From: Syntrophorhabdales bacterium
Lineage (GTDB): Bacteria; Desulfobacterota; Syntrophorhabdia; Syntrophorhabdales; Syntrophorhabdaceae
Direction of reading: 5' to 3'
Length of the DNA: 36,364 nucleotides
NCBI GenBank assembly: GCA_018052995.1
Contig: JAGPMK010000005.1
Span: 11,184-47,547 of the forward strand
The notes beneath the pieces were generated by a model that had not been told where the DNA came from, did no database searches, and saw nothing but the letters and a program-made list of their open reading frames with translations. Shown here piece by piece: positions 14,391 through 19,217 of this stretch (position 1 is its first letter; the number at the start of each line of letters is the position of its first letter). Made by a program: the position numbers and the translations under genes.

Positions 14391-15167
14391 CTAAAAGGAT
14401 ATACCCCTTCCTGTAAAAAGCCTTATTCCATATAATATGCCAAGTCCAATTGTAATAAGAATAAGCACAAGGACAACAGTCCCTTCTATATCTGCACTGG
14501 CAAGACGCATGAAGATTGCAACGGGGATTGTTTCTGTCTTCATAGCCATTGACCCTGCTATTGTAATTGTGGCACCAAACTCACCAAATGCCTTTGCCCA
14601 TGTAAGAATTGAAGAGGCAATAATCCCTCTTTTACAGAGAGGGAGGGTTACTGAGAAAAAAGCCTTAGAGGGTGATGCGCCTAGTGTCCTTGCTACCTCT
14701 TCGTATCTTGAAGGGATCTCGTCCATTGCCGCCTTTATAAGGCGTGTAGCAATCCCTGCAGTAGTAATAAACTGGGCAAGGAATATCCCGTATATAGTAA
14801 AAACGAATTTTATACCTTTATCCTGCATAAGAGAACCTAATGGGGTATTGAAGAAGATAAGAACAGTGGCACCTAAAGCAACAGGAGATACGATCATGGG
14901 CAGTTCAAGTATGGTATCAATTATCTGTCTTCCAGGAAAACGAAACCGCGATAATGCATAGGCTGATGGAATTGCAAGTAAAACAGAGAACAGGGTTGAA
15001 ATTGTGGCAGTGAAAAGACTCAAGCGTATGGAAAAAAGGGTTCTGTTTGAGATTAAAGCATCAAAGAAGACTTTTCCATTATAATAATAGAAGAGGGATA
15101 GAATAAGACCACCATAGATGATGAAGATAATAAAGCTTATAGATATGGAGAGTCTCTTAAATGTCAT
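14391..15167 (-). CDS. Molybdate/tungstate-type ABC transporter, permease
   Basis: A 258-residue integral membrane permease with about six hydrophobic segments, starting at residues 9-29. The cytoplasmic EAA loop is clear: EVARTLGASPSKAFFSVTLP, followed by GEFGATITIAGS, a segment characteristic of ModB/WtpB-type permeases. The ATG overlaps the stop of the binding-protein gene as ATGA, so translation is probably coupled. With the ATPase and binding protein it makes a complete importer. Confidence 0.87.
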   Translation of the reverse strand: MTFKRLSISISFIIFIIYGGLILSLFYYYNGKVFFDALISNRTLFSIRLSLFTATISTLFSVLLAIPSAYALSRFRFPGRQIIDTILELPMIVSPVALGATVLIFFNTPLGSLMQDKGIKFVFTIYGIFLAQFITTAGIATRLIKAAMDEIPSRYEEVARTLGASPSKAFFSVTLPLCKRGIIASSILTWAKAFGEFGATITIAGSMAMKTETIPVAIFMRLASADIEGTVVLVLILITIGLGILYGIRLFTGRGISF

Positions 15168-16012
15168 TTCTTCAACCGGTTTGTGATGACTTTAAATTCC
15201 CCTCCAATAGGTTTCTTCTCGCCTACAAACTGAAATGCCTCTTCAGCTGTTCCAAAATAATGATATTTTTTAAAGATTTCCTTTCCATCCATCAAGAGAA
15301 AATCTATAAAATTTTCGGCTTCTTTTCTTTTATTCGTATAGGCAATTATGCCTACCTGAATAGAACCGATACGTGCGATCTCGTTGGCTTTAAATTTTAC
15401 TGTAGAGACTTTATCAGGATACCACCTTTCAAGAAAGTGAAAGCCTATTATGGCATCTACGTGATTTAAAATAAGAAGGGTTGAGAGTTTATTGAAGTCT
15501 TCCGCGTATGTAACTATATTTTCTTGAATAGCCTTTTTTTCTTGAGGGGTAAGGGCATTTTCAATAATTTCTGTAGCAATGGCGCCAACATAAACTATCT
15601 CTGGGTTTGCCAGCCCCACCCTTATCCCTGGCCTTGCAAGGTCTTTTAATCCATGAATATTCTTTGGATTTCCTTTCTGGACATTGATGGCTGGCACAAC
15701 AAAACCGAAATTTTTGACCGATTCAGGGATAACAACACCTTTCTTGATCGCTTTTTCCATAATATCAGGCGAAGGTACTATGAAGACATCCCCCTGTTTA
15801 GTAAGAAGAGCCTGGCTTAAAAGAGTTGTCACACTTGCATAATGGATATCTACTTCCTTTTTTTTCTGTTTGTAAAGGCTTATAACATCTTTCATAGGGT
15901 GTTTGAAAGCAGCACCACAGAAGATAAATAGAGGTTCACTGCTGGCATTAGAAGTTGTAAAAAAAAGGGACATAAATAAAAAAAGTATAAAAAGGAATAT
16001 CTTTTTAAACAT
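15164..16012 (-). CDS. Molybdate/tungstate-type ABC transporter, substrate-binding protein
   Basis: A 282-residue periplasmic binding protein of the ModA/WtpA-like group. The N-terminus MFKKIFLFILFLFMSLFFTT is a signal peptide, with likely cleavage near SNAS/SEP (residues 23-27). The mature part opens LFIFCGAAFKHPMKDVISLY, where ModA proteins have the oxyanion-holding FxAAS-type loop. GDVFIVPSPDIMEKA and VGLANPEIVYVGAIA follow, as in ModA-fold proteins. The C-terminus FKKYHYFGTAEEAFQFVGEK is repeated in decayed form upstream (16793-16981). It follows the DUF364 gene by 12 bases. Confidence 0.85.
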   Translation of the reverse strand: MFKKIFLFILFLFMSLFFTTSNASSEPLFIFCGAAFKHPMKDVISLYKQKKKEVDIHYASVTTLLSQALLTKQGDVFIVPSPDIMEKAIKKGVVIPESVKNFGFVVPAINVQKGNPKNIHGLKDLARPGIRVGLANPEIVYVGAIATEIIENALTPQEKKAIQENIVTYAEDFNKLSTLLILNHVDAIIGFHFLERWYPDKVSTVKFKANEIARIGSIQVGIIAYTNKRKEAENFIDFLLMDGKEIFKKYHYFGTAEEAFQFVGEKKPIGGEFKVITNRLKK

Positions 16013-16792: not shown

Positions 16793-16981
16793 AGTTTAGC
16801 TGGCAAGACAAATTCCTCTCCATCAGGTTTCTTTTCGCCAATCCATTTATATGTCTCCTCAGGTGTCATAAAATAATGATATTTTTTTAAAGATTACTCT
16901 GCCTTCATGGGAAAGAACAAAATCTATAAGCCTCTGGGTCTTTGTTATAAGAAGAACTTGAATAAACATGATGGCATTCCT
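16793..16981 (-). pseudogene. Decayed C-terminal remnant of a second substrate-binding protein gene
   Basis: On the minus strand this stretch reads RLIDFVLSHEGRVIFKK and, after a one-base shift in a run of seven A's, KYHYFMTPEETYKWIGEKKP. It parallels the C-terminus of the intact neighbour (NFIDFLLMDGKEIFKKYHYF, then EEAFQFVGEKKP). The N-terminal four-fifths are missing, so this is a duplicated and mostly deleted binding-protein gene. It occupies the 5' leader of the operon, and a promoter directly upstream survives. Confidence 0.78.
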
Positions 16982-17045: not shown

Positions 17046-17204
17046 GAAATATAATAAATCAGGTAGCAAATCTCGGTGAATATTGTTCATCCACCTTTTT
17101 CCCTTGATGATCATCTTATTTGGATATAATACAAAAGTGGTGTATCAATCTGATAGGATAAAAAGGGCTTTTTTAATGTCTTTTAAGGGGGTGTTGAATA
17201 GAGG

Positions 17205-17271: not shown

Positions 17272-17460
17272 TTATTCAAGGGTCAAGGGAAACCCGGCTC
17301 TCTGGGGCTTACTTGTGAGTGTCATAGCTATTACCGTCCCGGAGCGTTCGTTGAAGACGTCATGACTGAGTATCAGAACCGGGCGCAGGCCTGACTGCTC
17401 CCGGCCTTTAGTCGGATTAAGGTCAGCCCATCGGATTTCACCTCTCAGTATTCTGGCCAT
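17272..17460 (-). pseudogene. mazF: Truncated MazF/PemK-family endoribonuclease toxin
   Basis: 62 residues, about half the usual 105-120 of MazF toxins. The N-terminal half is clear: LRGEIRWADLNPTKGREQSG, then LRPVLILSHDVFN and VIAMTLTSKPQ. The arginine (RPV) and threonine (TLTS) used for RNA cleavage in MazF homologues are kept, but the frame ends at FPLTLE-stop, and the C-terminal strands and helix that complete the fold are gone. Downstream DNA shows no continuation in any frame I could read. It starts 16 bases inside the antitoxin gene, the usual coupling. Likely inactive; a short functional form is not excluded. Confidence 0.75.
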
Positions 17461-17687
17461 TGGCTCATATCCTCAGTCATTCCTTCTTCAGCCATGGCTT
17501 TCTCAAGGGCGGGTTGAAGTTTTGCGCATTCCTTAGCGAGCCGGCTGCGTTTCATACGGAGAAGTTTTTCACTTACTGTTTCTTGAATTGCCTGACTGCG
17601 GCTTTGGAAGACATGTTGGTTAACCAGCCTATCCAATTCACCAATAAATTGTTCGTCCAATGTAATGGCTATTTTCTCTTTGCCCAT
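17445..17687 (-). CDS. Ribbon-helix-helix antitoxin (MazE/CopG type)
   Basis: An 80-residue antitoxin-like protein. The N-terminus (KIAITLDEQFIGELDRLVNQ, then SRSQAIQETVSEKL) has the ribbon-helix-helix pattern: a short beta strand, then two helices for DNA binding. The acidic C-terminus (EEGMTEDMSQWPEY) is the type that wraps a MazF-like toxin. The ATG follows GGGGG about six bases upstream. It overlaps the mazF fragment by 16 bases. A 25-bp palindrome covering the -10 region lies just upstream and probably is its own operator. With the toxin truncated it may be an orphan repressor. Confidence 0.82.
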   Translation of the reverse strand: MGKEKIAITLDEQFIGELDRLVNQHVFQSRSQAIQETVSEKLLRMKRSRLAKECAKLQPALEKAMAEEGMTEDMSQWPEY

Positions 17688-17751: not shown

Positions 17752-17815
17752 GCAGAACGACGGCTTCAGCGGGCGGCCCGCTTTTTGGCCGATCCGCTGG
17801 ATTGACTCGTTAAAT
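17752..17815 (-). repeat. attC-like recombination site (64 bp) of the first cassette
   Basis: In cassette orientation (minus strand) it opens with the R'' box ATTTAAC, a match to RYYYAAC, and closes with GTTCTGC at the R' position. GTTCTGC keeps the cleaved GTT but not the RRR that follows it. In between is an imperfect palindrome: AACGA/TCGTT, a mismatched spacer, CAGCGG/CCGCTG, a two-versus-one base bulge, CGGCC/GGCCG, and an A-rich loop. The R box, unpaired spacer, L box with extrahelical bases and terminal loop are the features IntI recognises in the folded bottom strand. The DUF2442 stop codon lies inside it, as cassette genes often end in their attC. Confidence 0.7.
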
Positions 17816-18080
17816 GAGGTCTTGTTTTCCACTTCAGGGGATATTTTTCCGGATTTTCAAGATTATCAATCTCCAAATCTACGTCTAATTCCGGCCAGTA
17901 TAAGTGATAACCGTGAAGCAGTTGAACAGTCTGTATTGATTTTAGAGTTTGATCTCTAAAATAGGGATAATCTTTGTAGCTGAGAAAGTACTCCCTTCCT
18001 TTTACAAACAGCCAAATGCCAAAAGGTGTAATATTCTCAACGCTTACCAAAATGCTTTCGCCATTCTTGGATGATTTCAT
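17766..18080 (-). CDS. DUF2442 domain protein (putative toxin-antitoxin partner)
   Basis: 104 residues from the ATG at 18080, which has GAGGAG eight bases upstream; an ATG 33 bases earlier lacks such a site. ILVSVENITPFGIWLFVKGR and EYFLSYKDYPYFRDQTL, then LYWPELDVDLEIDNLENPEK, are typical of DUF2442 proteins, which often sit beside DUF4160 genes as here. The final residues (SSGSAKKRAAR) are encoded by the attC-like palindrome and are probably not conserved. It overlaps the DUF4160 gene by 44 bases. The biochemical role of the family is not established to my knowledge; a toxin-antitoxin pair is the usual proposal. Confidence 0.8.
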   Translation of the reverse strand: MKSSKNGESILVSVENITPFGIWLFVKGREYFLSYKDYPYFRDQTLKSIQTVQLLHGYHLYWPELDVDLEIDNLENPEKYPLKWKTRPHLTSQSSGSAKKRAAR

Positions 18081-18279
18081 CTTTATGCTCCTCAATGATA
18101 CCTTGGATTTCACCCAGTTTTCTCGGATTCAGCTTATGATATGTAGCCAATGACACGATGGGCTCCAGCCAGAATTTTGCCTCCCCGCTTTCAGATGTCA
18201 CGTGGATATGGATGCGATCTTCTTCATTTGACAGGAAATAAAACCTGTAACCTTTTTCTCTGAAAATTGTGGGGCTCAT
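18037..18279 (-). CDS. DUF4160 domain protein (putative toxin-antitoxin partner)
   Basis: 80 residues, the usual DUF4160 length. The family's core is visible: MSPTIFREKGYRFYFLSNEE, then DRIHIHVTSESGEAKFWLEP, with the conserved HIHV segment, and a helical C-terminus (LGEIQGIIEEHKDEIIQEWR). It is the first gene of the first integron cassette, about 50 bases inside the cassette start. No good ribosome site precedes the ATG, so translation may be weak. It would be transcribed from the cassette promoter at 18363-18391. Confidence 0.8.
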   Translation of the reverse strand: MSPTIFREKGYRFYFLSNEEDRIHIHVTSESGEAKFWLEPIVSLATYHKLNPRKLGEIQGIIEEHKDEIIQEWRKHFGKR

Positions 18280-18324
18280 ATTTTACGCGCTACCATATAT
18301 CTTGGATTCTTGCATTTCATTCAC

Positions 18325-18331
18325 ATTTAAC
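18325..18331 (-). other. Putative attI/cassette core site GTTAAAT
   Basis: On the minus strand GTTAAAT matches GTTRRRY. It lies between the cassette promoter and the first cassette gene, where attI should be. Its TTAAAT is the complement of the ATTTAA in the attC R'' box at 17815-17809, as expected if both come from one circular cassette. A 7-base match alone could be chance; its position and complementarity give it weight. Confidence 0.55.
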
Positions 18332-18362
18332 AACTAATATACCCCTTTCTTTTTTTTCTTAC

Positions 18363-18391
18363 ATTCTGCTACCCGTATTTTTAGATGTCAA
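18363..18391 (-). promoter_or_regulatory. Predicted cassette promoter (Pc-like)
   Basis: Minus strand: TTGACA (18391-18386), 17-base spacer, CAGAAT (18368-18363; four of six matches to TATAAT). It lies between the integrase pseudogene and the core site and faces the cassettes. The expected transcript start is near 18356, giving a leader of about 77 bases for the DUF4160 gene. Confidence 0.55.
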
Positions 18392-18476: not shown

Positions 18477-18941
18477 ATGGCTCTATCGTCAAGCAGGTTA
18501 AAAGATTTGTTGTCTGATTTCCAGAGGTTTCTTTTTGAAAGAGATTTAGTGCCTGAAAAGTATTACCATTCTATGTATTGAGGGTCCGTCAGTTCCTCTC
18601 ATTCGCAAATAAAGAGGCAGAAAAAGGCATAGAGATACTGACCCAGAGATTCCTTGATCACTTAAGGCAAAAGGAACATTTAAGTGATGGGCTTATACAA
18701 CAGGCCGATGATGCCTTGAGGCTCTATCTTCATTATGAGGAAGGCATAAAATCTAAGGAAGGCGCTTGCGCAAGAGATTCAGAAACATGCCTTTTCGTCG
18801 GTTACCGGCATATTAAACGAGATGAAACGCCTCATAAGACTTAAACACTATTCATACAGTACAGAACAGACATATCTTGACAGGACAAGATGTTTTTTGC
18901 TTACGTCTAATCTCAAAAAGGCAGCAGTTTTTGTGGAATAG
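18477..18941 (+). pseudogene. Integron-type tyrosine recombinase (IntI-like) pseudogene, N-terminal part only
   Basis: Three frames must be joined. From the ATG at 18477, FQRFLFERDLVPEKYYHSMY ends in a stop at 18579-18581. The second frame continues VRQFLSFANKEAEKGIEILT, then LDHLRQKEHLSDG and ADDALRLYLHYEE. After another shift near 18798, GILNEMKRLIRLKHYSYSTE and QTYLDRTRCFLLTSNLKKAA run to a stop at 18941. The segment RLKHYSYSTEQTYLDxxRxF is the N-terminal SAM-like core-binding motif of integron integrases (compare YLHYSLRTEQAYVNWVRAF of IntI1). The preceding FL-LVPEKY-VRQFL domain is an N-terminal extension I associate with environmental IntI-like enzymes. The catalytic domain (R...HxxR...Y) is absent. 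A GGAAG ribosome site remains. Confidence 0.75.
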
Positions 18942-19217
18942 GGGGAAAGGAATAGAAAAATAAGCAAGAGAGGGTAAAAAAGAGAACCACATGGATATAA
19001 AATAACACATAATCAGGCTTACTGCCTATGATACAAAGGGTATAAAATGCCTATGTAGAGGGAAATACAGAAAGTTGGGGTTATGCAGAGGTCTTAAAAC
19101 ATCTAAAGAATGTTTTATAAGCCAAAAATGTGGTCCGATTGATTTATCCCTTTAGATAACTTTTCTACCACAATTTTTTTGCAAGGCTTTTTTTGATATG
19201 TTTTAATATTTATATTA
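18942..19217. other. Intergenic region right of the integrase pseudogene, no gene seen
   Basis: I see no coding remnant of the missing integrase catalytic domain in any frame. An 8-bp hairpin with a 7-base loop (AAAACAT/ATGTTTT) lies near 19097-19119, and a small AGGC/GCCT inverted pair lies near 19016. Neither has a U-tract. Confidence 0.3.

Follow-up and report, generated by a model that had tools for sequence, protein, structure and literature searches.

The site at positions 17752 to 17815 of the window, i.e., the whole 36,364-nt stretch of DNA that was analysed, is very probably the attC of a dhiTA cassette that comes first in a decayed chromosomal integron, with a mazEF cassette next. 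The attC itself is an ordinary site of a known kind, and the interest lies in the coding tail that it provides for an antitoxin. Read on the minus strand, it is composed of R'' (ATTTAAC, 17815-17809), a spacer (GAGTCAA, 17808-17802), L'' (TCCAGCGG, 17801-17794), a loop stem (ATCGGCCAAAAAGCGGGCCGC, 17793-17773), L' (CCGCTGA, 17772-17766), a second spacer (AGCCGTC, 17765-17759), and R' (GTTCTGC, 17758-17752), with the predicted G|TT crossover between 17758 and 17757. L'' and L' form seven pairs and leave one extrahelical base, a C on the minus strand and a G on the bottom strand; such a base is a known strand-choice feature of attC sites, and the length of 64 nt lies within their range of 57 to 142 nt (PMC2727003). 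Folding of the single-stranded DNA gave a hairpin on both strands, at -14.5 kcal/mol (z = -2.7) for the minus strand and -14.6 kcal/mol (z = -2.1) for the plus strand, and the extrahelical base that the original prediction had proposed to look for was found. The R''/L''/L'/R' layout, the AAC/GTT cores, the single extrahelical base in L'', and the position at a cassette end are all shared with the attC sites of sedentary chromosomal integrons, whereas two features set the site apart, namely that R' reads GTTCTGC rather than GTTRRRY and that the site is predicted to be read as protein up to L'. As had been stated, R'' fits its consensus (RYYYAAC) and R' is non-canonical, conforming to GTTRRRY only in its GTT core and in part of the remaining bases. 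Among 20 R' boxes from homologous sites, about 3 fit the full consensus, which is therefore no strict requirement in this set; the GTT core lies 7 nt past L', within the 5 to 8 nt used as a criterion for attC.

The assignment was based on covariance models, folds, and the recurrence of this site family downstream of unrelated ORFs. A de novo structural attC scan ranked 17752 to 17815 first in the window; its score was exceeded in 1 of 20 Markov-simulated 36-kb windows, a borderline result, and sequence alone was therefore regarded as suggestive rather than as proof. Covariance model R1, seeded with 17 attC sites of other cassettes in related loci, matched the site with 56 bits (E = 5.5e-12). 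Six of these seeds had been noticed through their similarity to the site itself. Model R2, with 10 seeds and those six excluded, returned 17752 to 17815 as its sole match in the window, with identical boundaries (29.7 bits, E = 7.3e-5). The same palindrome family was also found as non-coding attC after unrelated ORFs in G091, G083, G221, and other genomes. The comparative evidence is decisive, and what had been called an attC-like site is, on this basis, a genuine, canonically structured attC, predicted to be a substrate of IntI, in an integron that is inactive.

Of the integron context, the original prediction had recognised the attC and overlooked the remnants of the platform. A match to the integron-integrase model TIGR02249, containing five stops, marked an intI remnant at about 18480 to 18908 (plus strand). 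In tblastn searches with intact IntI proteins of two genomes from the same family as the source genome, G014 gave 59% identity over 66 aa followed by frameshifts, and G021 also matched. In several shifting frames with stops, the remnant spans approximately residues 6-149 of 435, corresponding to the N-terminal third, and the catalytic part is lost. With intI present only as this frameshifted remnant, the platform is inactive, and since a search of the genome with the integron-integrase model found no intact integrase, activity cannot be claimed. A Pc-like promoter, TTGACA-N17-CAGAAT, was detected by a promoter scan at 18363 to 18391 (minus strand) and is predicted to face the cassettes; in G014 it is kept as CTTGACAT...TAGCATAAT and CTTGACAT...TAGCAAAAT. 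DNA homology to the G014 integron regions spans this promoter and ends exactly at the GTT of ...TTAGTTGTT (18331), beyond which the sequence differs genome by genome; the equivalent place in G021 reads TATATTAAGTTGTT. This end was therefore taken as attI (...TATATTAGTTGTT|AAAT, 18325 to 18365, minus strand), with the crossover between 18331 and 18330 and the first cassette starting with TTAAAT at 18330. The intI remnant, Pc, and attI are on the correct side of the cassettes and in divergent orientation. The locus resembles CALIN-type remnants in having attC sites without a working integrase and differs from them in that attI and part of intI are still recognisable. A G014 contig with an intact integron integrase (L040, contig C101) ends exactly at the attI crossover GTT, at base 1, which is probably an assembly break within an array that varies.

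The first cassette (17758 to 18330, minus strand), delimited from the sequence and from homologous cassettes elsewhere, begins with TTAAAT and closes with the G of the attC. The GTTAAAT at this start reverse-complements the cassette's R'' (ATTTAAC) without a mismatch, and the start at 18330 is thus as expected of a cassette. It carries a DUF4160 gene (18037 to 18279, minus strand; Pfam, 1.2e-17), whose protein matched the NCBIfam model toxin_DhiT with an E value of 1.9e-4, below the curated cut-off, and a DUF2442 gene (17766 to 18080, minus strand; Pfam, 2.7e-14), encoding 104 aa from an ATG at 18080, with a GTG start at 18113 also open. Together they are predicted to form a toxin-antitoxin pair of the dhiTA type, with a DhiT-type toxin and a DhiA-type antitoxin. 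DUF4160/DUF2442 was proven to be a toxin-antitoxin system, dhiTA, in Dickeya dadantii (PMC8198452) and was proposed in Thermus plasmids, where the DUF2442 protein has 92 aa (PMC12724237). The domain pair, the toxin-first order, and the overlapping genes are common to those systems and the pair described here, which differs from them in being an integron cassette and in the attC-encoded tail of its antitoxin. The nearest dhiTA cassettes in other genomes showed 81 to 86% DNA identity from 17766 upwards, i.e., to the end of L', and in L083 several further attC sites around the dhiTA cassette constitute a cassette array. Complementarity of cassette start and R'' was considered as general evidence and dropped; among the other dhiTA loci, L062 was the only perfect case and many were without it. 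An attI-like cassette start was also not found for many DUF2442 homologues elsewhere that have the C-terminal tail.

The claim that the DUF2442 stop codon lies in the stem, making the last residues of the protein attC-derived, was upheld: the TGA is at 17768-17766, inside L', and the attC and its flank supply the last 16 codons (HLTSQSSGSAKKRAAR; CAT TTA ACG AGT CAA TCC AGC GGA TCG GCC AAA AAG CGG GCC GCC CGC TGA). In relatives, the tail reads HLTSHSTGRR(V/I)AAR, and the stop is likewise in L'. Across a comparison set of 80 DUF2442 loci from many phyla, the same tail residues recurred, in several cases with R' lost. Tailless versions ending in ..YPLKSK also exist, two of which (L111 and L114) have an attC after the stop. 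For the commonest tail type, 13 of 22 distinct loci had a GTT exactly 7 nt downstream of the stop, against 0.3 expected, and the sequence beyond GTT in those 13 loci was unrelated. The pN/pS of the tail, from counts that ignore relatedness between loci, was 0.55 in frame (codon bootstrap, 0.35 to 0.90), compared with out-of-frame values of 0.92 and 1.09 and with 0.11 for the DUF2442 core, which is weak evidence suggestive of some constraint at the protein level. Downstream of DUF2442 in L177, L179, and L052, an R' core of GATAGGC or GATAAGC instead of GTT was seen at the right distance, as a repeated variant.

A GC-rich hairpin at a gene end, with relatives after other genes, could also be a REP-like element or the hairpin of a transcription terminator. 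This is extremely improbable, as the palindrome is without a T-run, is absent from the predicted terminators, and had no match in an Rfam search, while its AAC/GTT core boxes at fixed spacing, the cassette-start rule, and the adjoining attI are those of an integron. The possibility that the palindrome is no recombination site and nothing more than conserved coding sequence at the 3' end of DUF2442 draws on the tail residues common to homologues in many phyla, some of which have lost R', and on the lower pN/pS in frame than in the other frames. DUF2442 homologues with the same C-termini in non-integron loci had been put forward as grounds for rejecting an attC, and shared C-termini do occur in many phyla, but the same palindrome family is also non-coding attC after unrelated ORFs, which refutes coding as the sole explanation. 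Moreover, some tailless genes have an attC just past the stop, conservation continues beyond the stop as far as GTT and no further, and remnants of attI, Pc, and intI adjoin. Coding alone is therefore very improbable, and a coding role alongside that of attC is accepted. Since unrelated ORFs carry the same palindrome family and tailless DUF2442 exists, the palindrome is an attC first and coding sequence second. It is further possible, although doubtful, that the attC was taken into the dhiTA antitoxin gene as a lasting C-terminal tail that recombines as attC, is kept in frame in its length, and is partly selected as protein even where R' is lost. In ACID, an attC/ORF overlap of at most 15 bp is allowed (PMC2674596); with so little overlap permitted by annotation rules, tailed cassettes of this kind would be missed.

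On the far side of the attC, an antitoxin gene of a mazEF pair (17445 to 17687, minus strand) was assigned from a weak ribbon-helix-helix match and from homologous antitoxins, 75 to 84% identical, that are found in the mazEF cassettes of related genomes. This antitoxin is of the ribbon-helix-helix type and not of the SpoVT/AbrB type of classical MazE. It is followed by a truncated mazF (17272 to 17460, minus strand), matching PemK_toxin positions 2-55 of 109. Comparison with G016, G018, and L058 bore out the truncation that had been noticed before, with a 7-bp deletion leading to a stop after FPLTLE, the last half gone, and foreign sequence beyond. The cassette's own attC was lost together with the end of mazF and, for the same reason, cannot be read here. 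The identity of the second cassette as mazEF is thus inferred from relatives, in which mazEF is bounded by attC sites in G016, of the same family, and in G162, from elsewhere. In both, the TAA stop of mazF lies inside R'' (GCGTAAC in G016 and GCATAAC in G162), and the cassette starts, GTTACGC and GTTATGC, respectively, are the complements of their own R''.

The simplest reading of GTTCTGC is a single substitution in GTTATGC, in which case there is no call for a missing GCAGAAC site. The original prediction had instead expected a missing mazEF attC beginning with GCAGAAC, i.e., a cassette that truly began with TTCTGC, in line with the rule that a cassette start mirrors its own R''. This appears quite unlikely, given that GCAGAAC was present in none of about 20 mazEF loci inspected, that R'' in the relatives is GC[A/G]TAAC with starts of GTTA[T/C]GC, and that mazF ends in ..TAAC where an attC is present, so that GCAGAAC would remove the stop. 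It is also unlikely that the attC is real with a right-hand junction to chromosomal DNA, the dhiTA array having joined a non-canonical, attG-like GTT target and mazEF never having been a cassette here. R' indeed keeps only GTT, and integron integrases are known to act on secondary sites as well, with attG sites mentioned in PMC12901181. However, mazEF of the same type is attC-bounded in G016 and G162 with a leader of similar length, and its starts there are one or two bases from GTTCTGC.

The integron remnant is flanked in direct orientation by two ends of an IS5-type element, recognised as repeats in the same genome and in G014. The 3' end (18909 to 19096, plus strand) abuts the intI remnant, and a 5' end belonging to this IS family (17065 to 17177, plus strand) lies beyond the truncated mazF; the IS5 transposase match came from the G014 copy of the element. 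In contig C80 of the same genome, both ends are fused into one short unit of about 133 bp. The ends flanking the integron remnant might belong to a single mobile unit that carries it; no target duplication could be established for them. The PAS-GGDEF and glyQ genes are syntenic in related genomes; the DUF364 flank was not found beside them there, and hence no empty site was shown. A 99-nt direct repeat (15194-15292 and 16810-16908, 74%) looks as if the end of the substrate-binding protein gene (15164-16012) had left a copy of itself beyond the DUF364 gene.

In the proposed course of events, IntI of the intact platform would have recombined the folded bottom strand of the dhiTA attC with attI by a cut at G|TT, so that the dhiTA cassette came to lie behind Pc, with the mazEF cassette next. 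Later, the catalytic part of intI and the second half of mazF would have disappeared, each beside IS5-type sequences, after which the array would be frozen. R' would have drifted by one base, from GTTATGC to GTTCTGC, and the DUF2442 frame, passing through R'' and L'' to its stop in L', would yield an antitoxin with a 16-residue tail written by the attC.

Further attC sites were located in the same genome beside hicBA-like pairs (G000:C41:1597-1660 and G000:C68:527-584), together with a probable, weaker one (G000:C3:457-516; the three loci are L202-L204), and the family is rich in attC sites, with up to tens in some members. Superintegrons, e.g., that of Vibrio cholerae, carry toxin-antitoxin cassettes. 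The locus resembles them in its toxin-antitoxin pairs as cassettes and in a mazEF that keeps its own promoter-like sequence, and differs in that the array is small, decayed, of an unrelated lineage, and flanked by IS5-type remnants. Among the open-access papers searched, none mentions both DUF2442 and integrons; the new element would be the wide occurrence of dhiTA as a cassette whose antitoxin has an attC-encoded tail, a proposal that needs experiment. The findings add a decayed chromosomal integron to an attC-rich lineage and show that dhiTA, only recently validated as a family of toxin-antitoxin systems, is carried across phyla as an integron cassette. The attC-encoded antitoxin tail offers a testable case of a recombination site that doubles as protein-coding sequence.
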